64,000 nucleotides of DNA from Rhodospirillales bacterium (GTDB taxonomy: Bacteria; Pseudomonadota; Alphaproteobacteria; Rhodospirillales; Casp-alpha2): contig JAGLED010000004.1 of the NCBI GenBank assembly GCA_023145215.1, positions 37,675-101,674 on the forward strand. Reading direction: 5' to 3'. This document shows positions 25,491 through 63,505 of the stretch, in pieces. Both the position numbers and the translations under genes were made by a program. How positions within the stretch are numbered: the stretch's first letter is position 1; each line of letters begins with the position of its first letter. Under the pieces are notes generated by a model. It was not told where the DNA came from, searched no databases, and saw only the letters and a program-made list of their open reading frames with translations.

Positions 25491-25725
25491 CCCTCACCTA
25501 ACCTCTCCCCCTAAAAGGGGGAGAGGGATTAGAGCGTGATGTTGCGACAGGGTGCCTTCTCCCTTGGGAGAAGGACAGGATGAGGGGCCCCTCACCCGGC
25601 GCGCGATGCGCGCCACCCTCTCCCGGGGGAGAGGGATATACCGGCTGGGTCCCTCTTCCCCAGCTTGCTGGGGGAGAGGACAGGTGATGGGGAATCAGGT
25701 GAGGGGGGCTGCAGTTATGCGTCAC
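25491..25725. repeat. Intergenic palindromic repeat region, family A (CCTCTCCCCC...GGGGGAGAGG)
   Basis: Several consecutive hairpins; internal block tccctcttccccagcttgctgggggagaggacaggtga shared with 60964 and 63395 copies. Confidence 0.9.
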
Positions 25726-32958: not shown

Positions 32959-32959
32959 G
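32899..32959. repeat. Left copy of 61-bp diverged direct repeat (3' end of AsmA-like gene)
   Basis: Gap-free alignment with 34214-34274, 8 mismatches. Confidence 0.9.
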
Positions 32960-33122
32960 AATGCATGTGATCTCAGGATATCGCATGTGAAATACGTTTC
33001 CGGATTTTGATGAGAGGGCTGGGGGTCCTGTTGCTCCTTGTCAACGGGTATCGGCGTGCGGCTTCCCCTAAGGCGCATTCTCGGTCTATGTTGATGCCGG
33101 AAAGGTTGAAAACCAAAAAACT

Positions 33123-34199
33123 ATGCGCGTGTTTATTTGGACAGTCTTGATTATGGCTGTGGTGGCCATCCCCGTTTCGTCCTCCTTTGCTGACGAGCCG
33201 CCCGCCAGTATCCGCACGGCGGCGGAGAAGGGTGAAACTGTCGCGCAGTTTGAACTTGCGGAGTTCTACTTTCGAACAGAGGCAAACAAGGATTTAACCA
33301 AGGCCCGCCATTGGTACCGGCGCGCGGCTCAAGGGGGTCACGCCAAGGGGCAGGCTCTTTTCGCGTACTTTCTGGATAATGGCTTAGGCGGCGAGGCCGA
33401 TTTCCAGTCTGCTTTGGTATGGTACGAAAAAGCGGTCGCGCGCGGCCAGCACATGGCCGAGTACAACCTAGGTTTGATATACGAGACCGGACGTGGCGTT
33501 GAGAGGGATATCGAACGGGCGGTCAGGTTATACAAGGCTGCGACGCAGGATGTCAGATATTCATTGCCGCAGTTTCGCATTGGGCAGATTTACGAGACCG
33601 GTGCGCTTGGCAAGCCCGATATTGCGAAGGCGATGGAGTGGTATGCATATGCCGCCGAACGGGGATATACACCTGCACAAGAGCGATTGAAGTTGCTTGC
33701 TGAACGGGAAGTCGAAAAAGGCGACGTCGGGGTCATCCTGATGCAGTGCCGTGACAAATCGCTTCCGCCGTTCGATCGGATCGACGCCTGCACCAGCGTC
33801 ATTGGTGATGACGAGGCGACGGAGAATGAAATAGGAAAAGCGCTTGTTAGCCGAGCGATCACCCGCAAACAGGTGGGAGAGTTCGGAGCCGCAATCCGTG
33901 ACTACACGAGGATTGTGACAATGCGCCCCGAAGCATCATCGGCATTCTACAATCGTGGCAACATTCATCAGACAATCGGCAATTTCGATCTGGCATTGAG
34001 TGACTATAACGAAACTATCCGATTGCAACCCGATCACGCCAAGGCCTTCGCAAACCGGGGCATACTGTTCGAGAAGCTCGACCGCGAAAGTGACGCGGCT
34101 AGGGATTTTCAGCACGCTTATGATCTTGGGCTGCGTGAAGATCTGCTGCAAAAGAAGATGTCGGCTCATGGGTTAAAGTACGATGTCGAGTACGAGTGA
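33123..34199 (+). CDS. SEL1/TPR repeat protein (exported)
   Basis: 358 aa; KARHWYRRAAQGGHAKGQALFAYFLDNGLGG..., C-terminal TPRs SSAFYNRGNIHQTIGNFDLALSDYNETIRLQPDHAKAFANRG. Confidence 0.9.
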   Translation: MRVFIWTVLIMAVVAIPVSSSFADEPPASIRTAAEKGETVAQFELAEFYFRTEANKDLTKARHWYRRAAQGGHAKGQALFAYFLDNGLGGEADFQSALVWYEKAVARGQHMAEYNLGLIYETGRGVERDIERAVRLYKAATQDVRYSLPQFRIGQIYETGALGKPDIAKAMEWYAYAAERGYTPAQERLKLLAEREVEKGDVGVILMQCRDKSLPPFDRIDACTSVIGDDEATENEIGKALVSRAITRKQVGEFGAAIRDYTRIVTMRPEASSAFYNRGNIHQTIGNFDLALSDYNETIRLQPDHAKAFANRGILFEKLDRESDAARDFQHAYDLGLREDLLQKKMSAHGLKYDVEYE

Positions 34200-34213
34200 G
34201 CCGATGCAGCATG

Positions 34214-34274
34214 GCGCTATCGTTCGACCGCACCACGGTCGAGAGCGGTGGCGACGTCGTGCCATGTTTGTGAG
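34214..34274. repeat. Right copy of 61-bp diverged direct repeat
   Basis: gcgctatcgttcgaccgcaccacggtcgagagcggtggcgacgtcgtgccatgtttgtgag; encodes ALSFDRTTVESGGDVVPCL* vs ALSLGSTTVESGGNVVPCL*. Confidence 0.9.
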
Positions 34275-34333
34275 GGGAGAACGCCGTCGTCGGCGGCAAG
34301 CCGCCAACCGCGTTTCATCCGCCTGAAATCCCG

Positions 34334-34960
34334 TCAGCGGGTGGAGGTGCCTACCTGCATGCGTTCGCGGAAAAAGTCGTGGATCAATTCCATATCGAAG
34401 GCGTCATAGGAAACCATGCTTAGAATCTGCGTGACGTTGCCGTCGTCTCCAAACGGAAGCCGTAAGCACTGATAGCTTTTGCTTTCGTGTAACCCAAAGC
34501 CAAATGTTTCGAACAGTAATGGGTGCTTTTTATCGATGACCTCCGAATATTCCCGGAAGACCTTGGCCGCGACGCTGAAGGGCCTGAGATCGAGCGTTGA
34601 TTTCCCTGTGACATCGTAGCCTTGGATGCGCGTTCGCGCGGTGCCCCAGAAGCGATACCTGAAATCCTGCGGGTAGGGGATGTAATCGACGACGGTACAC
34701 CAGGGTATCGCGTCCGCGGGGATCGCCAGCCAATCCCAATCGCGCCACGCGGGAAGCGGCCCGGTTTTCTTGAGGGCTGTCCAGCTATGAAACGCAACGT
34801 CGAGCGGGGCTGGGAGGTTGACCTCGTCCCCATTTTTCATGACGCTTCGGTAGTTATCTACGATCCCCAAAATACCCATGCCATTCGGTTCCAGAATTTG
34901 ACCGTTCGATGAGTCAGCATGGAACACAAATCGGAGAAGGTCGGACTTGATCTGGGTCAA
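34334..34960 (-). CDS. PAS-like (PAS_5 type) protein
   Basis: 208 aa; FRYRFWGTARTRIQGYDVTGKSTLDLRP...VIDKKHPLLFE...YQCLRLPFGDDGNVTQILSMVSY. Confidence 0.75.
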   Translation of the reverse strand: MTQIKSDLLRFVFHADSSNGQILEPNGMGILGIVDNYRSVMKNGDEVNLPAPLDVAFHSWTALKKTGPLPAWRDWDWLAIPADAIPWCTVVDYIPYPQDFRYRFWGTARTRIQGYDVTGKSTLDLRPFSVAAKVFREYSEVIDKKHPLLFETFGFGLHESKSYQCLRLPFGDDGNVTQILSMVSYDAFDMELIHDFFRERMQVGTSTR

Positions 34961-35041: not shown

Positions 35042-35632
35042 ATGAATACGTCGACTGATAAAGTGTCCCGTCCCCCCGTCAGCCGTTTCCCGGTACCGGA
35101 CCTGGTTGATCTGCCGGATGACATTCGCGAACGCATTCTGGCCGTGCAGGAAAAATCCGGCTTCGTGCCGAACGTATTCCTCGTCCTGGCACACCGGCCG
35201 GACGAGTTCAGGGCATTTTTCGCCTACCATGACGCACTGATGGAAAAGCCGGGAAACCTGACCAAGGCCGAGCGCGAGATGATCGTGGTCGCGACCAGTG
35301 CCAGGAACGAATGCCAGTACTGCGTCATCGCGCACGGTGCGATCCTGCGCATCCGAGCCAAGAACCCGCTGATCGCCGATCAGGTTGCGACGAATTACCG
35401 CAAGGCCGATATCACCGCGCGGCAAAAAGCGATGCTCGATTTCGCGATGAAGGTTTCCATGTCGGCGCAACAGGTGGGTGAAGCGGACTTCGACCTATTG
35501 AAAAGTCATGGTTTCGATGAGGAGGATATCTGGGATATCGCCGGAATCTCGGCGTTCTTCGGGATGTCCAACCGGATGGCGAACGTCACCTCGATGCGCC
35601 CGAACGATGAGTTTTATGCGCTGGGTCGGTGA
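35042..35632 (+). CDS. AhpD-like carboxymuconolactone decarboxylase/peroxidase-related protein
   Basis: LTKAEREMIVVATSARNECQYCVIAHGAILR (CxxC-xxxH), FPVPDLVDLPDDIRERI. Confidence 0.9.
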   Translation: MNTSTDKVSRPPVSRFPVPDLVDLPDDIRERILAVQEKSGFVPNVFLVLAHRPDEFRAFFAYHDALMEKPGNLTKAEREMIVVATSARNECQYCVIAHGAILRIRAKNPLIADQVATNYRKADITARQKAMLDFAMKVSMSAQQVGEADFDLLKSHGFDEEDIWDIAGISAFFGMSNRMANVTSMRPNDEFYALGR

Positions 35633-36138
35633 GGGAATGAAGCGCCACCGGCGCCACGATGCCTGTCCCCAATTCCGGATTTCGTCGCCAGCCTGTGAAG
35701 GCCGGGTGCCCGCGGGCACGGATTTTCACCGCGCCGATAATTCAATTAAAAGTCGAATATAATAGGAAAATCCAAGTTGAATAGTTTTGCGGTTTCGCGC
35801 GCCGGCACAACCGTTGAACCCGAAACACGGGGTGGGGAATAAGGTGTTGCGCCCCCTGGATAGGGAAATTTATCAAATAACATCAATGAATTACGCGTGT
35901 ATCGATCCGATTGATAGGTAAATACGTACTAAAAATAGGAGCAACGCTCGACTTAAAACTTACTTGATCGCGTGCAACATGCGCCCAAAGTATATCATTA
36001 GGTTATATCGGCATGTTTTTCACGTTTTAAGGGTGGTTATCTCTGGTGGTGAGGTGCAGGACCTAAATCCTGCAGAAAAATCAGGAAACGTCACCATGCA
36101 CCGCCTACGGAACGTCATCTAACCGGGCAACACGCAAA

Positions 36139-36237
36139 ATGCCTGTAATGACACGCAGCATGCCGGTAACGAGTGTCGGCGTTGGGGTCTGCCGACTGGA
36201 ATGGGAACATTACCGGAGGAGACTGAGAAATGCCTGA
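36139..36237 (+). other. Putative 32-aa leader ORF whose stop overlaps the kaiB start
   Basis: ATG CCT GTA ATG ACA ... CGG AGG AGA CTG AGA AAT GCC TGA; carries the kaiB Shine-Dalgarno (GGAGGAG) inside its coding sequence; no product evidence. Confidence 0.3.
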
Positions 36238-36538
36238 TAGCGGAAGGCCTCACGGCGAACCTTTTTATTTTCGATTATACGTCAACGGCATGAACGGGAA
36301 TTCAAGCCAGGCCGTTGCCAATCTGCAATCGCTGCTCGAGACGCAACTTCCCGAGCAGTTCGATCTTGAAGTTCTCAATATCGTCGAAAATCCCGAAGCG
36401 CTGGACGAAGACGACGTTCTCGCCACGCCAACCCTGATCAAAAAACTTCCCGAACCCGTTTCCCGCCTCTTGGGCGATTTTTCCAACCAAGACGCCGTCC
36501 TCGCCGGCATGGGCCTGCAACCGAAAGCGCAAACCTGA
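36230..36538 (+). CDS. kaiB: KaiB circadian clock-type protein
   Basis: 102 aa; FRLYVNGMNGNSSQAVANLQSLLE...LEVLNIVENPEALDEDDVLATPTLIKKLPEPVSRLLGDFSN (ATPTL, GD-x-SN). Confidence 0.95.
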   Translation: MPDSGRPHGEPFYFRLYVNGMNGNSSQAVANLQSLLETQLPEQFDLEVLNIVENPEALDEDDVLATPTLIKKLPEPVSRLLGDFSNQDAVLAGMGLQPKAQT

Positions 36539-36588
36539 TTTCCGTCGACGGATATTTTGGTGAACCAGAAGGATGAAGGAGTGGAGAC

Positions 36589-38343
36589 ATGGACGAGTCC
36601 GCTCACGGACAGGCGCAGACCAAGACATCAACCAGCGGTGATGGTGCGTCCGGCGGCGCAGCTGTAGATAAGGTGCCGACAGGGATACTCGGACTGGATC
36701 AGATCCTGGGTGGGGGGCTCCCCAAGGGACGCGCCATTCTGGTCGTCGGCAGCGCGGGTAGCGGTAAGACGATCCTGGCGACCGAATTTCTCGCGCGCGG
36801 TGCGCTCGCGCATGACGAGCCCGGGGTGCTCGTGACCTTCGAAGAGTCCATTAACGAACTCAGCGCGAACGCGGCAGGTTTCGGCTGGGACTTCAAGCGC
36901 CTGCAGGAGGAGAAACGCCTGCAGCCGCTGGTGGTCGACCTCTCGGCAGCGGGCGGTATGCAAACCGGCAGTTTTGATCTCGAAGCCCTGTTCGTACGGA
37001 TTGGCAACGCGATAAAGAAGGTTGGCGCTCGGCGTCTGGTGTTGGATGGAATCAACAATCTTCTCGCCAGTTTCAACAACGAGCCGGTCGTCCGTTCGGA
37101 ATTGCTTCGACTGCTGCGCTGGCTCAAGGATCAGGACCTGACCGTGGTCGTGACGGGCGAAGCCGGTGAAGACGGTTGGACGCGGCTCGGCTTCGAAGAA
37201 TACCTGGCCGACGGTCTGATCGCGCTCGATCACCGGGTCGAGGGCAAGGTGGCGAAACGGCTGCTCCGGGTGGTCAAGTGCCGTGGCATTTCTCATTCCA
37301 CGGACGAGTTTCCGTTCCTGATCGCCAAGGACGGCATTTCGCTGTTTCCGGTCAACGCCGCAGACCTCGACTACGACATTTCGGCAGGTGTGGTTGAAAG
37401 CGGGGTTGCCGGTCTGGACGAGATGCTCGGGCACGGCGGGTTCTACAAAGGCAGTGCGATTCTCGTCAGCGGCTCGGCCGGTACCGGGAAGTCGACGCTC
37501 GGCGCGAGTTTCGTGGACGCGGCGTGCCGCCGCGGCGAACGGGCGATCTACTTCACGTTCGAGGAGTCCCCGTCGCAGGTCGTGCGCAATATGAAATCCG
37601 TCGGCATCGACCTCGCGCAATGGCAGGACAAGGGACTGCTCGCCATCCGGGCGACGCGCGCCATGCAGCAGGGGATCGAGAGCCACCTGACCGAGATGCA
37701 GGAAGCGGTCAGGGCGGCGAAACCCAGCGTTGCCTTCGTCGATCCGATTTCCGCGCTTTTACCTGTCGGGACCGAGAACGAGGTGAAGTCGATGATGACG
37801 CGGATGATCGACTATTTCCGTTCCGAGGGCATCACCACGATGATGAGCAACCTTGCGAAAGGTGGCGTATCCGGTGAGGCCGCCGATTTCCACGTCTCGT
37901 CGATGGCGGATACCTGGCTGCTCGTGCGTGTGATCGAGGAAAATGCCGAACGAAACAACATCATTCAGGTGCTGAAATCGCGGGGCATGGATCATTCGCG
38001 TCTGGTGCGCGAGTTCAATTTTACCGACAGCGGCATAGAGATCGTCGATGCTTATATCGGCCTCGACGGGATCGTGATCGGCAGTGCGCGGCACACGGCG
38101 GAGGCGAAAGACAAGCTTCATCGCGAGCGGCGCCGGTCCGACCTGATCAAGAAAAAAGAGGAACTTGCCGAAAAACGCCGCGCCATGGAAGCGCAAGTCG
38201 CCAGGCTTGAAGCGGAACACAAGGCGGAAGAGGAAGCTCTGGCCGTCGAGGCCGAAGCCAACGATCGCCAGGAAGCAATCGAGAATCTGGCCGTCAATGC
38301 CGTCGTTAGCGAGAGAAGCAAATCGACCGGTGACGCGGCGTGA
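36589..38343 (+). CDS. kaiC: KaiC-family double RecA-domain ATPase with extended C-terminal tail
   Basis: 584 aa; two Walker A (GSAGSGKT, GSAGTGKST), FEE motifs in both halves, FHVSSMADTWLLVRV at the phosphosite region; C-terminal charged region HRERRRSDLIKKKEELAEKRRAMEAQVARLEAEHKAEEEALAVEAEANDRQEAIENLA. Confidence 0.96.
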   Translation: MDESAHGQAQTKTSTSGDGASGGAAVDKVPTGILGLDQILGGGLPKGRAILVVGSAGSGKTILATEFLARGALAHDEPGVLVTFEESINELSANAAGFGWDFKRLQEEKRLQPLVVDLSAAGGMQTGSFDLEALFVRIGNAIKKVGARRLVLDGINNLLASFNNEPVVRSELLRLLRWLKDQDLTVVVTGEAGEDGWTRLGFEEYLADGLIALDHRVEGKVAKRLLRVVKCRGISHSTDEFPFLIAKDGISLFPVNAADLDYDISAGVVESGVAGLDEMLGHGGFYKGSAILVSGSAGTGKSTLGASFVDAACRRGERAIYFTFEESPSQVVRNMKSVGIDLAQWQDKGLLAIRATRAMQQGIESHLTEMQEAVRAAKPSVAFVDPISALLPVGTENEVKSMMTRMIDYFRSEGITTMMSNLAKGGVSGEAADFHVSSMADTWLLVRVIEENAERNNIIQVLKSRGMDHSRLVREFNFTDSGIEIVDAYIGLDGIVIGSARHTAEAKDKLHRERRRSDLIKKKEELAEKRRAMEAQVARLEAEHKAEEEALAVEAEANDRQEAIENLAVNAVVSERSKSTGDAA

Positions 38344-39941
38344 ACGATACGAGTTGGTCCGGCAGTAACGTCGACGAACGGGCGGCTGCTTCGCGTGCAC
38401 CGGCACCCGGCCGTCGGCAGAAAAAACCGCCGTCGCCCCGCCGGATAAAACGGCGTAGCGTGCGGCCGCGGATCGTCCATGTGATCACCGCGAGCATTTC
38501 GGCCCTGGTGATCTCGACCTCCGCGGTCATGTTCTGGACCCAGTGGACGATCTCTCAAGATGTTGCCCACCGCCTGATCGACCGCAACACATCGCTGCTT
38601 CTCGACGATCTGGAGAACTGGGTCGAGTTCGTCGTCGATGCGCGCAGGCCGGTTGCGGTCGGCGACGATTGGTCATCGATCCCCACATACGGTGACAAGA
38701 CACGGCCACGGAGCCTGGTCGAGGCCATTTCAAGAAAAAGTAACGACATCGGCGGCACGGCGTTCGTCATACGGCCTTCAGGCGATCTGATCGCCCACCC
38801 CAACATAACGACCTCCAGCGCCCGTAGAGGAGGTGAGGATTATCCCACGGTGCCGGTGAACCATGTCGGCGATCTTGTGCTGGAGGGGCTCTGGAATTCC
38901 GCAATCCACGATCCGGATTTTCGCACCACTGCCGCCGGCGCGGTTTATCGGCTCGACCGATATGTCTACGGCCAGGAATATCTTGGCTTCTTCGAGCGGA
39001 TCAATGCTGCCGGCGAGGATTGGATTATCGGCATGTGGCTGTTGGCCGAAGATGTTCATAGCCTGTCAAAACAGTTGAAGTTGGGGATTATCGTGGCCGC
39101 TGCGGGGTTGGTGCTTTCGGTACTGATGGCGTGGTATCTGGCAAGGCGCATGGCGGCCCCGGTCGAGCAACTCGTCGTGAATTCCCGCCGTCTGTCGAAC
39201 CTTGAACTGGAAGATGTCAGCGAATTGAGCGCGAGCCGGGTCAAGGAACTCGGCGATCTATCCGGATCGTTTTCACGTATGGTCGGGAGCTTGCGGTCGT
39301 TCGGGACATACGTGCCGTGGCAACTTGTCAGGCATCTCGCGGCGAACGGCGGCCAGCAACTGGACTCGCGCGAGTGCGATGTCGCCGTCCTTTTCACCGA
39401 TGTGGTCGGGTTCACCGCGCTGAGCGACGGCATGGCGCCGATCGAAGTTGCGGCGTTCCTGAACGAACACCTCTCCATCCTGGGGGGCATCGTCGAGGAA
39501 CATGACGGTACGATCGATAAGTACATCGGCGATTCCCTGATGGCGTTCTGGGGCGCGCCGGACGAGATCGACAATCCGGCTGAGAAGGCGTGCCAGGCGG
39601 CGCTTGGCATCGCGGCTGCGCTGGAGCGCTACAACGCCGGCCGCCGAGAAGAAGGAAAGCCGCCGGTGCGCATTCGTATCGGTATTCATTGCGGACGGGC
39701 GCTGGTCGGCAACATCGGCGCGCCGGGGCGCGTCGATTACACGGTGGTCGGCGATACGGTCAACGCCGCGCAACGGATCGAAGCGCTTGCCGCCGATATC
39801 ATCAGCAAGGCCGACGCGACGATCCTGATCGGCGAGTCCGTCGCCAAAGAATTGCCCGCCTATATCGATCTGCTCGAGGTCGGGACCGCCGCGCTCAAGG
39901 GACGAAAGGAAACGCTCGTCGTTTACAGGCTGATGACATGA
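38340..39941 (+). CDS. Membrane class III adenylate/guanylate cyclase (sensor + HAMP + cyclase)
   Basis: GTG start overlaps kaiC stop; TM, periplasmic region, HAMP (ARRMAAPVEQLVVNSRRLSNLELEDVSEL), cyclase VAVLFTDVVGFTALSDGM...DGTIDKYIGDSLMAFWGAP...IRIGIHCGRALVGNIGAPGRVDYTVVGDTVNAAQRIE. Confidence 0.95.
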   Translation: MNDTSWSGSNVDERAAASRAPAPGRRQKKPPSPRRIKRRSVRPRIVHVITASISALVISTSAVMFWTQWTISQDVAHRLIDRNTSLLLDDLENWVEFVVDARRPVAVGDDWSSIPTYGDKTRPRSLVEAISRKSNDIGGTAFVIRPSGDLIAHPNITTSSARRGGEDYPTVPVNHVGDLVLEGLWNSAIHDPDFRTTAAGAVYRLDRYVYGQEYLGFFERINAAGEDWIIGMWLLAEDVHSLSKQLKLGIIVAAAGLVLSVLMAWYLARRMAAPVEQLVVNSRRLSNLELEDVSELSASRVKELGDLSGSFSRMVGSLRSFGTYVPWQLVRHLAANGGQQLDSRECDVAVLFTDVVGFTALSDGMAPIEVAAFLNEHLSILGGIVEEHDGTIDKYIGDSLMAFWGAPDEIDNPAEKACQAALGIAAALERYNAGRREEGKPPVRIRIGIHCGRALVGNIGAPGRVDYTVVGDTVNAAQRIEALAADIISKADATILIGESVAKELPAYIDLLEVGTAALKGRKETLVVYRLMT

Positions 39942-40035
39942 CAGATACCGGGCCGGCGAACCGCGGGAGCCGCTTGCGTGTCCGATGAAATCCCGCGTAG
40001 CATTGTCGGGATACCGATATATGGAGGATCAAGCC

Positions 40036-40215
40036 GTGAAACGTCTTTGTCTTGCCGTTGCCGTTTTCTCTCTGATCGGGCTGTCGTCTCCCGGCCACGT
40101 CATGGCCGCCGGGACCGATCAGTCGCAAAGCCCGTCGAGTTCATCCTATGAGCCGCAGGACTACAGCTCGCCCTTCGGCGACGGATCTTGCTCGAAACCG
40201 GCGCCGACGTCGTAA
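40036..40215 (+). CDS. Small predicted exported peptide
   Basis: GTG after atggaggatcaagcc; VKRLCLAVAVFSLIGLSSPGHVMAAGTDQSQSPSSSSYEPQDYSSPFGDGSCSKPAPTS. Confidence 0.5.
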   Translation: MKRLCLAVAVFSLIGLSSPGHVMAAGTDQSQSPSSSSYEPQDYSSPFGDGSCSKPAPTS

Positions 40216-40323
40216 CGTTTACTGCCTAAAATGCCGCCGTCGCCCTGAACTTGATTCAGGGGCGGTGAGAGCGTGTCTCCGGGGCGAGTCGCACTTGCGC
40301 CGACCGGGATAGGCGATTTTATC

Positions 40324-41886
40324 TCATTGCCCGTCGTGGATCGGGAACAGTTTGAGTTCCCAGTCCTTCAACTGACCGATCAGCCCCAACTCCCAATTCA
40401 GATAGGCGCGCGACGCGTCTGCGTTGCCGGCATGCCGGTCGTGGACGAAGAACAGAAAATCGATCCGGTCTTCGTCTTTCGGGGTGTCGGGTGTCGAGAC
40501 GACGTTCACGCCCGCGCCGCGCCAGTCGTCCGGGGATCCGGTGAGGTAGCGGACGCGTCCTGCGCCCATGTCTTTCAGATCCATCGCTGCCAGTTCGGCA
40601 AGCCGTTTGTCCTCGGCGGCGAGAACGACCTCGCCCGTCAAATCAAGCGATGCGAGCACCGGGCGGATCGACCACACCGCATTCTCGACATGCGCGTCCC
40701 GGTAGGCGGCGCTCGGGCGCAGGTCGACGACCGCCGCAGCGCCGATGTCAGAGGCGGCGATTTCATCAAGCGTGTCGGGGACGGGTTTCGCAGCGGACGC
40801 GGGCGCCGCCAGATCGACCGATGCATCGGAAACGTCGCCCGACAACACGTACGCATCGTGGCCCATGGCGCGCAGCCAGTATGCGGTGTTGGCGGCACGC
40901 ACGCCGCTGTCGTCGCATAAGACGATGCGCGCACCCCTGACCGCGATCCATTTATCCGTGGCCTGCGCGAGTTGCCCGCCCGGCGCATGAACCGCGCCCG
41001 TCAGGTGATGTTTCTCGAATTCCTCGCGGCTGCGAACATCCAGAAGATAGAACGTGCGCGTGGCGTCGTCGGCCCAGGTCTGCGCCGTCGCCGCATCCAC
41101 ATCGGGGATGGCGTTATCCTTCATGAAGCGCCGGGCACGCGCCTTGGCGTCCTCGAACGCTTTGCCCGTGACGGCGGGCAGCGGAAGCGCCGGTTTTCCG
41201 TGATCCAGGTCGAAGCCCGCCAGCCGCCAGCCCTGAGTGCCGTTCTTCAGCGCGAAGATCGGGTTCTCGAAGCCCATGTTGCGGAGCCCTTGCGCCCCGA
41301 CCAGGCTGCGTGTGCGTCCGGCGCAGTTGACGATGACTTTCGTCGTCGGATTGTCGACCAGTTGCGGCAGGCGGTACGGCAGTTCGGCGTTTGGGCAGGA
41401 CCGTCCGCCCGGGATGCTCATCGCTTCGAACTCGTTCGGCGTGCGGCCGTCCAGCAGAATGAAATCGTCGCCCGCATCGAGCATTCGTTTCATGTCTTCC
41501 GCATCGATGGACGGTGTGTGGCCGATCTCTTCGGCCAGTTCGCCCAGTGTTTTGGAGGGCACGTTGACGCCCTTGAAGATCGTGAAGCCGGCGTCTTCGG
41601 CTGCCGCCAGGCCGCCCGCGAGCACGCGGACGTCTGTATAGCCCAATGCTTCGAGCCGCCCTGCCGCTTTTTCCGCCACGCCTTTGCCGTCATCGACGAC
41701 AACGACCGGGACGGCCACGCACGGCATCAAGGCCGGGGCGTCGACTTCCAGCCGGCTGTAGGGAAGGGGGACGGTGTGCAGCAGATGCCCCTCCCCGAAC
41801 TGGCCGTCCTCGCGGACGTCGATGAAACCGAACTCGGCGCCGTTACCGAGCCAGGATTTGATCATGTCGGCGGCGATCGATTGCAT
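40324..41886 (-). CDS. Multi-rhodanese-domain protein (about four tandem rhodanese units)
   Basis: 520 aa; repeated rhodanese pattern: FIDVREDGQFGEGHL; FILLDGRTPNEFEAMSIPGG...VIVNCAGRTRS; YLLDVRSREEFEKHHLTGAVHAPGG...IVLCDDSGVRA; VVDLRPSAAYRDAHVENAV. Confidence 0.9.
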   Translation of the reverse strand: MQSIAADMIKSWLGNGAEFGFIDVREDGQFGEGHLLHTVPLPYSRLEVDAPALMPCVAVPVVVVDDGKGVAEKAAGRLEALGYTDVRVLAGGLAAAEDAGFTIFKGVNVPSKTLGELAEEIGHTPSIDAEDMKRMLDAGDDFILLDGRTPNEFEAMSIPGGRSCPNAELPYRLPQLVDNPTTKVIVNCAGRTRSLVGAQGLRNMGFENPIFALKNGTQGWRLAGFDLDHGKPALPLPAVTGKAFEDAKARARRFMKDNAIPDVDAATAQTWADDATRTFYLLDVRSREEFEKHHLTGAVHAPGGQLAQATDKWIAVRGARIVLCDDSGVRAANTAYWLRAMGHDAYVLSGDVSDASVDLAAPASAAKPVPDTLDEIAASDIGAAAVVDLRPSAAYRDAHVENAVWSIRPVLASLDLTGEVVLAAEDKRLAELAAMDLKDMGAGRVRYLTGSPDDWRGAGVNVVSTPDTPKDEDRIDFLFFVHDRHAGNADASRAYLNWELGLIGQLKDWELKLFPIHDGQ

Positions 41887-41980
41887 GGTGCTTCCCCAAT
41901 GATTTCCGGTTGGCCGTCTTGATGCGGCGATGGATTTTCATCGCACCTGATCAGCGCGTTGTCCAAGGTTTATCGCGGAG

Positions 41981-43324
41981 TCAGTTGCGGCGGGCAATTG
42001 ACGGTAAGCCGATGATCGATTCGAAACCGTCGGCCCGGCCGGTTGCCGGAGATTTGAAGTCGAGGCCGATGTTGCCGTTTTCGGCGATTGCGGCGGCGAT
42101 CGCGAGTCCAAGTCCGCTACCTTCGGCCTGCGTCGGCCCGCGCGAGAAACGCTCGGTAATGCCGGTGAGGCTCTCGCTCGGGAGCGCGGCGCCCCCGTTG
42201 ACGATGCGCACCTCCCGCTCGCGGGCAACGATCTCGACCGTAGAGCCCGGCGGGCTATGCTTGAGGGCATTTTCGATCAGGTTGCGCACCAGGATGGCGA
42301 AGGCGTCGGCATCGACCGGGGCCGATAGCGCGCCGGCGTCGGCGGCGGTGTACTTCAGCCGGGCAGCGCTTTCCGCGCTTCTCAGGAACTCGTCCACGGC
42401 AGCATCCAGCACCGCGCCCAGATCGACCGGCGCCGCGGTGACGATCCCGCCGCCTTCGGCGCGCGCGAGTTGCATCAGTTTTTCGGAGATCCGCGCGAGC
42501 CGCTGCAGCGAGGTTTCAATGGCCCGTGCGCGGTCCCGTAATGCTTCATCCTCGATTACGGAAATCAGCCGCTGCGTTTGCGCCAGCGCGCCGGCGATCG
42601 GGGTGCGTAGTTCATGGGCGCTGTTGGCTGTGAAACTGCGCTCCACCTCGAGGCTTCGCTGCAGGCGGGCCATCAGATCGTTGACCGCGTGGCGGATCGG
42701 CTCGATCTCGTCCGGCAACTGGGCAGTGTCGAGCGGTGAAAGGTCGCCGGCACTCCGGGCCCCGATCTGCCCGCCCAGCCCGACGACAGGGGCCATGCTG
42801 CGCCTGACCAGCCACCAGACGCCGACCATGCCCAACGGCAGGAACAGCGCCAGCGGAACGGCGAGGGCGATGGTCGACTCGATTGCGGCTTCGCGCCGGT
42901 GGCGGAGCGGCTCCGCGACCTCGATGAAGATGCTGTCGCTGACCGCGGCTTCGCCATAAATGCGGTGCGTCTCGGTGTCGCTGAATCCCGTCGCCGGCGT
43001 TTCCGGGAAGACACGGCGGTCGGCGTCGTGGGAGTGCAGCAGGATATTCCCGGCGGCGTCGCGTACCATATAGGTCAGGAATTCCTCGTGCGGTCTGAGC
43101 GGACCGACGCGGCGCTCCGAAAGTTTGTCTTCGTGATCGAGGATGTCGACCACGGCGAGAGATAGAAGCCGCTGCGCCATTTCCTGCAGTGCGCTGTCGT
43201 AGGCCTCATCCAGTTCGTGACGCACGACCAGCCCGCACACCGTGACGCCGGCCAGCCAGACCACCGTCACGCCGAGGGCGAGGGCAAAGCTCAGCCTGTT
43301 GCGCAGGCTGTACGTATTGCTCAT
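41981..43324 (-). CDS. Sensor histidine kinase
   Basis: MSNTYSLRNRLSFALALGVTVVWLAGV; SFTANSAHELRTPIAGALAQ H-box; GLGLAIAAAIAENG; start overlaps stop of response regulator. Confidence 0.94.
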   Translation of the reverse strand: MSNTYSLRNRLSFALALGVTVVWLAGVTVCGLVVRHELDEAYDSALQEMAQRLLSLAVVDILDHEDKLSERRVGPLRPHEEFLTYMVRDAAGNILLHSHDADRRVFPETPATGFSDTETHRIYGEAAVSDSIFIEVAEPLRHRREAAIESTIALAVPLALFLPLGMVGVWWLVRRSMAPVVGLGGQIGARSAGDLSPLDTAQLPDEIEPIRHAVNDLMARLQRSLEVERSFTANSAHELRTPIAGALAQTQRLISVIEDEALRDRARAIETSLQRLARISEKLMQLARAEGGGIVTAAPVDLGAVLDAAVDEFLRSAESAARLKYTAADAGALSAPVDADAFAILVRNLIENALKHSPPGSTVEIVAREREVRIVNGGAALPSESLTGITERFSRGPTQAEGSGLGLAIAAAIAENGNIGLDFKSPATGRADGFESIIGLPSIARRN

Positions 43325-43980
43325 GACCGTCGCACCCGGTAGCCGATGCCGCGCACCGTCTCGATGATGTCGCGGCCGAGCTTCTTGCGAAGCCGGCTGA
43401 TGTGGACCTCGATGGTGTTGCTTTCGAACGATGCGTCGAAATCGTAGAGGTGCTCCTCCAGTTGCGCTTTCGACAGGATCGCGCCCGGATGCTGAAGCAG
43501 GGTCTCGAACAGCCGCCATTCGCGCGCCGTCAGATCGATCGCTTTGCCGCCCCGGCGGACCGTGCGGGCGGCCAGATCGATTTCCAGGTCGGCCAGTGTC
43601 ATCAGCGGGTTGGGATTACCGGTGTAGCGCCGCGCGACCGCGGCGATGCGTGCGCTCAGTTCACTGAGATCGAACGGCTTCACAAGGTAATCGTCGGCGC
43701 CGGCGTTGAGGCCTTCGATCCGTTCCGAGATCCGGTCCCTGGCGGTGAGGATGATGACCGACGTCACATCGCCTGCGGCGCGGCGTGTACGAAGGAAGTC
43801 GAGGCCGCGGCCATCCGGCAGCATCAGGTCGAGCAGAATCAGATCGTAGTTCACGGCCCGCGCCCCCGCGTCGGCGTCGGCCAGCGATGTCACCCAGTCG
43901 ATGGCGTGGCCGCTCGCCGTCACGTGATCGGTGATCGCGTGTCCGAGGGTAGCGTCGTCCTCGATCAACAGAATGCGCAT
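43321..43980 (-). CDS. OmpR-family response regulator
   Basis: MRILLIEDDATLGHAITDHV...DLILLDLMLPDGRGLDFL...VKPFDLSELSARI; winged-helix C-term TIEVHISRLRKKLGRDIIETVRGIGYRVRRS. Confidence 0.95.
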   Translation of the reverse strand: MRILLIEDDATLGHAITDHVTASGHAIDWVTSLADADAGARAVNYDLILLDLMLPDGRGLDFLRTRRAAGDVTSVIILTARDRISERIEGLNAGADDYLVKPFDLSELSARIAAVARRYTGNPNPLMTLADLEIDLAARTVRRGGKAIDLTAREWRLFETLLQHPGAILSKAQLEEHLYDFDASFESNTIEVHISRLRKKLGRDIIETVRGIGYRVRRS

Positions 43981-44126
43981 GTCGGGTCCATTTTTGGGGT
44001 TGGGCTGCCGTTTGATATGCACCTTACCTTACCGGAAGCTGAAGCAGAAAATGCCTCCGGTTCAGCCGCCGGCAAGGTTGTGCCGCAAAAGTCCCTGCAT
44101 CGTTTCAACGTAACAGGAGACTTCCC

Positions 44127-44417
44127 ATGAACCGATCCATCAAGAAACTCTGCCTCGCCACCGCCGCTGTCGCGGTCCTCGGACTCGGCGCATCGCCTGC
44201 TTCTGCCGATGATTACCGTTGCGACGCGCCGATGACGGAATGGCAGCCGCGCGAAAACCTGCAGAAAAAGCTCGAAGCCGAAGGTTGGCAAGTCAAGCGA
44301 ATCAAAACCGATGACGGTTGTTACGAGGTCTATGCTTTCGATAAAGACGGCAATCGGGTCGAGGCCTCTTTCGATCCGAAATCCCTCGAAATGCTCCGAA
44401 AGAAGAAAGATGACTGA
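44127..44417 (+). CDS. PepSY-domain periplasmic protein
   Basis: 96 aa; signal peptide, LQKKLEAEGWQVKRIKTDDGCYEVYAFDKDGNRVEASFDPKSLEML. Confidence 0.88.
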   Translation: MNRSIKKLCLATAAVAVLGLGASPASADDYRCDAPMTEWQPRENLQKKLEAEGWQVKRIKTDDGCYEVYAFDKDGNRVEASFDPKSLEMLRKKKDD

Positions 44418-44961
44418 GGACACGAAACCCACCGTCAAGGTATGGGACCCGGTGGTACGTGTCTTTCACTGGTCCCTCGTCGGGGCGTTCGCCCTGGCAT
44501 GGCTGACCGGCGATGAGCTGGATCGCGTGCACGAAATTGCGGGTTACGTGATACTCGGTCTCGTCGCCGTTCGCCTGGTCTGGGGCGTGATCGGCCCGCG
44601 TTATGCCCGGTTCACGCAATTCGTGCCGGGCGTGCGCGGCTTCAGGGACTACCTCACGGATATCGGGAAAGGGCGCGAGCACCGTCACCTCGGTCATAAC
44701 CCGGCAGGCGGCGCCATGGTCGTCGCGCTGCTCCTGGCGCTCCTCGCCACAGGGGGCACGGGATGGATGATGACCCTCGACATGTTCTGGGGGTCCGAAT
44801 GGGTGGAGGAAGTACACGAAGTGATGGCGAACATGATGCTTGTGCTCGTCGGTCTGCATGTCGCGGGCGTGGCCGTGGTTAGTATCAGGCATCGTGAGAA
44901 CCTGGTTCGCGCGATGCTGACCGGCCGCAAACGGCCGCCAGCGCCGGGCGATATCGCCTGA
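44410..44961 (+). CDS. Cytochrome b561 family protein
   Basis: MTEDTKPTVKVWDPVVRVFHWSLVGAFALAWLTGDE...HEIAGYVILGLVAVRLVWGVIGPRYARF...VHEVMANMMLVLVGLHVAGV. Confidence 0.94.
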   Translation: MTEDTKPTVKVWDPVVRVFHWSLVGAFALAWLTGDELDRVHEIAGYVILGLVAVRLVWGVIGPRYARFTQFVPGVRGFRDYLTDIGKGREHRHLGHNPAGGAMVVALLLALLATGGTGWMMTLDMFWGSEWVEEVHEVMANMMLVLVGLHVAGVAVVSIRHRENLVRAMLTGRKRPPAPGDIA

Positions 44962-45005
44962 CACCCGGGCGCGATGACGGGAGCGCTCCGTCTCTCCCAA
45001 AAAAA

Positions 45006-54617: not shown

Positions 54618-54624
54618 AGCGGCC

Positions 54625-54688
54625 CCTCACCCGGCTCGCGCCGCTCGCCACCCTCTCCCGAGGGAGAGGGGGCAGGGTGAGGGAAAGC
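54625..54688. repeat. Intergenic palindromic repeat, family A
   Basis: cccctcacccggctcgcgccgctcgccaccctctcccgagggagagggggcagggtgaggg. Confidence 0.85.
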
Positions 54689-60183: not shown

Positions 60184-60236
60184 TGCCCCTCTCCCTGGGG
60201 AGAGGGTGGCGCGTAGCGCCGGGTGAAGGGCTCAGT
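60184..60236. repeat. Intergenic palindromic repeat, family A
   Basis: cccctctccctggggagagggtggcgcgtagcgccgggtgaaggg. Confidence 0.85.
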
Positions 60237-60963: not shown

Positions 60964-63385
<2,422 letters not shown>

Positions 63386-63394
63386 TAACGATAA

Positions 63395-63505
63395 TCCCCC
63401 TCACCTAACCTCTCCCCCTGGAGGGGGAGAGGGAAGAGTTCGGAATGCGTTTCGACAGGGTCCCTCTTCCCCTGTTTGCTGGGGGAGAGGACAGGTGAGG
63501 GGGTG
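63395..63505. repeat. Intergenic palindromic repeat, family A (full-length copy)
   Basis: ccccctcacctaacctctccccctggagggggagaggg...cgacagggtccctcttcccctgtttgctgggggagaggacaggtgaggggg. Confidence 0.92.

Follow-up and report, generated by a model that had tools for sequence, protein, structure and literature searches.

A kaiB-kaiC gene pair overlapping the gene of a predicted class IIIb adenylyl cyclase in a Rhodospirillales bacterium

The window analysed here is a stretch of 64,000 nucleotides from a Rhodospirillales bacterium. As the original prediction had claimed, genes for KaiB, KaiC and a membrane cyclase follow each other on its plus strand, all three open reading frames being found at their predicted places.

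35636..39969, plus strand: whole present/absent unit, made up of an upstream region of about 590 bp, kaiB, kaiC and the cyclase gene (blastn against L198 of genome G002)
36230..36538, plus strand: kaiB (102 amino acids; PF07689 with 79.1 bits, cut-off 27; KaiB proteins of circadian clocks are its best matches among solved structures)
36589..38343, plus strand: kaiC (584 amino acids; two KaiC ATPase domains; PF06745 with 350 bits in two stretches; NCBIfam NF006799 with 617 bits)
38340..38343, plus strand: GTGA, where the GTG start of the cyclase gene lies on the TGA stop of kaiC (sequence)
38340..39941, plus strand: gene for a membrane class III cyclase (533 amino acids; PF00211 with 88 bits, cut-off 21.9; predicted class IIIb adenylyl cyclase)

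The gap between kaiB and kaiC is 50 bp, and a partial Shine-Dalgarno motif (GGTGA) is located six bases 5′ of the cyclase GTG start. Because position 38331 carries an in-frame TGA, the gene cannot begin earlier; reading on in frame, the next possible start codon comes 40 codons later, at 38460, just 5′ of the first membrane helix. The start at the kaiC overlap is thus the best but not the only candidate, and the one at 38460 might be used instead. Open reading frames, Pfam matches and the GTGA overlap at 38340-38343 together bear out a kaiA-less kaiB-kaiC operon overlapping a class III cyclase gene. The earlier description of the cyclase as fused into the operon holds for the genes, which overlap by four nucleotides, and not for the proteins. 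A sigma-70 promoter scan found no promoter and scored no better than on shuffled sequence, and a search of 34-42 kb of the window against Rfam gave no match. The GC content of the unit (about 0.61) is ordinary; upstream, at 33-36.5 kb, it is lower (0.51-0.57), a compositional feature that is not decisive for transfer.

The absence of kaiA- and SasA-like genes, previously noted for the window, extends to the whole assembly, which comprises 2.3 Mb and is 66% complete. KaiA (PF07688) has no match there, and the single KaiB-fold match (PF07689) is kaiB itself, with no second protein of this fold such as SasA. KaiA and the KaiB-domain kinase SasA, by which a KaiABC circadian oscillator is recognised, are thus both absent from this 66% complete assembly. 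The genome codes for seven class III cyclases and 11 cNMP-binding proteins.

KaiC has the features of a double-domain clock ATPase, namely two ATPase domains, both Walker A sites (GSAGSGKT at 54 and GSAGTGKS at 295) and both pairs of catalytic glutamates (EE 85-86 and EE 325-326). Its best solved relative is the KaiC of R. sphaeroides (8dba, 474 bits), with which two further features align.

37897..37902, plus strand: S437-S438, phosphorylatable serines of the second KaiC domain (aligned with S413/S414 of R. sphaeroides KaiC; site numbers from PMC10076222)
38095..38340, plus strand: C-terminal charged helical extension of KaiC (aligned with the R. sphaeroides coiled coil; the 8dba alignment reaches residue 561)

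In R. sphaeroides a C-terminal coil bundle links two KaiC hexamers, and KaiA is not needed (PMC10076222). According to the alignment the KaiC of the window carries a C-terminal coiled-coil extension of this KaiA-independent KaiC_RS type; a dodecamer would be expected by analogy. In the tree it forms a clade of its own with a KaiC fragment of genome G043 and the KaiC of G093:C146 (support 99 in FastTree and 100 in IQ-TREE SH-aLRT), and within this clade of three it pairs with the G043 protein (SH-aLRT 93). The clade lies outside the 33-row branch that holds 8dba and outside the large kaiC-kaiB-kaiB-kinase group to which R. sphaeroides belongs; the branches around it are long, making its exact depth uncertain. 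As judged from alignment and tree, the likeness to R. sphaeroides KaiC is one of anatomy, and the kinship is not close. No KaiC relatives were found among viral contigs, and on plasmids KaiC occurred in no more than 16 records, from Cereibacter, rhizobia and a small number of others, always at less than 60% identity.

The cyclase consists of a sensor part and a catalytic domain, and its AlphaFold2 model (m53762f6c5eca; pLDDT 78, pTM 0.51) is fair overall and good in the catalytic domain.

38715..39044, plus strand: single Cache/PAS-like periplasmic lobe, residues 126-235 (AlphaFold2 model; no dCache_1 match; alignment gap of about 100 residues)
39069..39296, plus strand: second membrane helix and HAMP-like linker, residues 244-319 (hydropathy; PF00672; helices in the model)
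39378..39929, plus strand: catalytic domain, residues 347-530 (PF00211; model pLDDT about 90)

The metal-binding residues D354 and D398 and the transition-state residues N475 and R479 are kept in an alignment with CyaC (1wc1) and 17 relatives, and K394 and T468 align with the base-reading Lys/Thr pair of CyaC. A threonine in place of the aspartate in this pair marks class IIIb. CyaC is also the top Foldseek match of the model (1wc1, E 1e-17). Since the protein shares its Lys/Thr pair with CyaC-type adenylyl cyclases (class IIIb), cAMP is, on the established class III residues, the likely product. The cAMP/cGMP output that had been suggested can therefore be sharpened to predicted cAMP (Lys394/Thr468). 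With such cyclases the protein shares the catalytic fold and all catalytic residues, the Lys/Thr pair included; unlike CyaC (1wc1) it is membrane-bound, has a truncated Cache sensor and is encoded in a kai operon. The HAMP match is weak: PF00672 scores 21.1 bits and stays below its cut-off of 25. Cyclase relatives of about 600-630 residues contain dCache_1, with 47.6 bits in L042, which is above the cut-off, and weaker matches in others, whereas no dCache_1 match was obtained for the cyclase of the window at E values up to 1, and the model shows one lobe. Compared with its dCache-bearing relatives, the sensor is thus, going by sequence and model, short of one periplasmic lobe. The option that a membrane sensor feeds the clock, which the original prediction had allowed for, is somewhat weakened by this loss.

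Comparison with genome G002 of the same genus showed that the three genes are present or absent together. There the flanking genes are in the same order and the site is empty: window positions 35075-35635 correspond to L198 12709-13269 on the left (85%, blastn) and 39970-44972 to L198 13273-18228 on the right (80%, blastn). The segment 35636-39969 is exactly what is additional here, and kaiB, kaiC and the cyclase gene are the only genes in it; because of this exact boundary shared with the empty site we regard them as one unit. Two genomes alone cannot separate insertion from loss, but gain of the cassette here rather than loss in G002 is favoured, because only two of the 49 genomes of the family encode KaiC. 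The cassette ends carry no long direct repeats. As the longest word they share has only 7 bases, we do not name a mobile element.

The matching place in G002 also lacks window positions 32959-34368, which contain a gene for a Sel1/TPR-repeat protein (33123-34199). This second indel is located 1.3 kb from the cassette, pointing to an indel-prone area. Dispersed short repeats with a palindromic core of the GGGAGAGGG type are found at 25541-25660, 54622-54671, 60185-60231, 60965-61039 and 63396-63505; they occur in G002 too and look like intergenic repeat elements.

The adjacency of kaiC and a cyclase gene is not confined to this genome. In both family genomes with KaiC the cyclase gene directly follows kaiC. 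The other one, G043, has kaiC (55% identity) followed by a cyclase gene (43% identity) on the same strand, and the tree of the cyclases pairs the two kaiC-linked proteins with moderate support (82/81). The kaiC of G043 is broken, with its 5′ half gone and an early TAG, and kaiB is not visible in this genome; the downstream cyclase gene is whole. This kaiC (L032 5268-6458) is cut at its 5′ end against foreign sequence, and its state reflects decay or misassembly. G093:C146, which completes the KaiC clade of three, shows no cyclase gene in the roughly 400 bp that remain on its contig. A second pairing was found in another KaiC lineage, in the order kaiC-kaiB-cyclase, in G093 (L037 7257-10703) and G106 (L007 1400-4215). 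The cyclase-like protein encoded there is divergent (PF00211 with 17.2 bits, below the cut-off); by eye, it keeps the metal and transition-state residues and has Ser in place of both Lys and Thr, and the listed sequence has no obvious membrane helix.

A neighbourhood conserved across alphaproteobacteria, as had been considered, was not found: KaiC was detected in 46 of the order's 322 genomes and in 13 of the 395 in the class sample, and linkage to a cyclase is rare among them. Close relatives of the cyclase (in G035, G045, G314, G062, G174 and G103) are found in genomes or at loci lacking KaiC. Within the family and the order, its nearest relatives are mostly encoded on their own without KaiC, which indicates that this type of cyclase does not need KaiC. 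In G314 a gene for a cyclic-nucleotide-binding protein (L161 248-724) is located just 5′ of one of the closest relatives, which fits cAMP signalling by this subfamily. From the seven class III cyclases in 2.3 Mb, the chance of meeting one is estimated at about 0.3% per neighbouring gene slot. With KaiC in 46 of the 322 order genomes, chance alone should produce about 0.2 adjacent cases; two lineages with two genomes each were found. By count alone, this excess is suggestive rather than overwhelming. More than chance is indicated by the pairing kept in a second genome and by the shared present/absent boundary, and the empty site and the gene overlap add weight.

According to an earlier survey, nearly all non-cyanobacterial kaiBC clusters encode a kinase or a GGDEF/EAL protein directly downstream (PMC3164672). 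Across 80 named KaiC loci, drawn from many different phyla, and the loci of the order and class, the commonest gene order was kaiC-kaiB-kaiB-histidine kinase. The KaiBC hourglass of R. (Cereibacter) sphaeroides (PMC10076222) resembles the system described here in being KaiA-free and in its two-serine phosphosites, C-terminal coiled-coil extension and kaiB in the operon. It differs in its gene order, kaiC-kaiB-HWE histidine kinase on plasmid pB compared with kaiB-kaiC-adenylyl cyclase, and its KaiC belongs to a separate clade. Rhodopseudomonas palustris (PMC4794148) likewise has a KaiA-free Kai operon with a signalling protein downstream, which there is a PAS histidine kinase (kaiC-kaiB-PAS histidine kinase) and not a cyclase. 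A second-messenger enzyme in the partner slot is also known from kaiBC-GGDEF/EAL operons (PMC3164672), and proteins with GGDEF or GGDEF-EAL motifs are encoded directly 3′ of kaiB in L054, L114 and L134; those are c-di-GMP enzymes, whereas the enzyme here is a cAMP-type cyclase. Searches of the literature on KaiC together with adenylate, adenylyl or guanylate cyclase, largely outside subscription journals, turned up no account of this pairing. With a class III cyclase as its immediate partner, kaiBC here adds a new entry to the known slot pattern.

Taken together, the data might be explained by a KaiA-independent KaiBC timer in a self-contained cassette, in which the usual signalling partner has been swapped for an adenylyl cyclase and cAMP is the readout; we give this a probability of about 0.45. 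KaiC and KaiB would keep time in the manner of the R. sphaeroides proteins: KaiC would autophosphorylate in a double hexamer held by the C-terminal coil, and KaiB would reset it according to the ATP/ADP ratio. The slot usually taken by a histidine kinase or a GGDEF/EAL protein would be filled by the membrane class IIIb adenylyl cyclase, and the state of the timer would probably be read as cAMP via Crp-type proteins; the 11 cNMP-binding proteins of the genome could read this signal. The three genes would be co-transcribed, and KaiB or KaiC would control the cyclase. That the signal would run from timer to cyclase, and not the reverse, is suggested by analogy with the partner slot and by the reduced sensor. 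Several observations speak against this timer cassette: the cyclase lacks a SasA-type KaiB-like domain and hence any known docking module, its nearest relatives (G035, G045, G314, G062) mostly come without KaiC, in G043 kaiC is broken and kaiB is missing, and no cyclase gene follows in the short remainder of the G093:C146 contig.

These standalone relatives would also fit genes that are merely made together, the cyclase working in parallel to the timer, for instance by raising cAMP when the operon is on, without direct control by KaiBC. The overlap speaks for shared expression and no more. Yet genomes whose proteins are just 43-55% identical have both kept the pair, and in G093 and G106 kaiBC and a cyclase are paired independently; we consider parallel action rather doubtful. 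In the reverse direction, the timer would be set through cAMP or direct contact by the membrane cyclase, which itself would respond to an external signal or to CO2/bicarbonate; such a role would make use of the retained periplasmic lobe, membrane helices and HAMP-like linker. CyaC responds to bicarbonate, and the class IIIb catalytic residues resemble those of this enzyme. For the kinase of the R. sphaeroides kai operon, too, an input role has been proposed (PMC5520375). Against this stand the lost dCache lobe, the cyclase-like protein of G093 and G106 with no obvious membrane helix, and the lack of a cAMP-binding module in KaiB and KaiC, which together make an input role unlikely. Unrelated genes placed side by side by an insertion would be conceivable in a region prone to indels (32959-34368 is also absent from G002) and in a genome with seven class III cyclases; given the four-base overlap, the sharp common boundaries with no other gene inside and the kaiC-cyclase order kept in G043, such a chance neighbourhood is very improbable.

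The timer cassette with a cAMP readout can be put in a stronger form, which we offer only tentatively: the KaiBC timer would gate the adenylyl cyclase directly, time of day or energy state would be broadcast as cAMP and not through a phosphorelay, the cassette would move as a unit, and the partner swap would have arisen twice. The output route of KaiBC systems outside cyanobacteria is poorly known, and the cassette is a small, tractable case with its own predicted second-messenger enzyme. If KaiC does control the cyclase, cAMP would be a bacterial clock output. In a deltaproteobacterial locus (L052 7851-16017) several second-messenger components stand in one row with kaiC; the gene order there is kaiC-kaiB-kaiB-PAS histidine kinase-receiver-HD domain-PilZ-class III cyclase.
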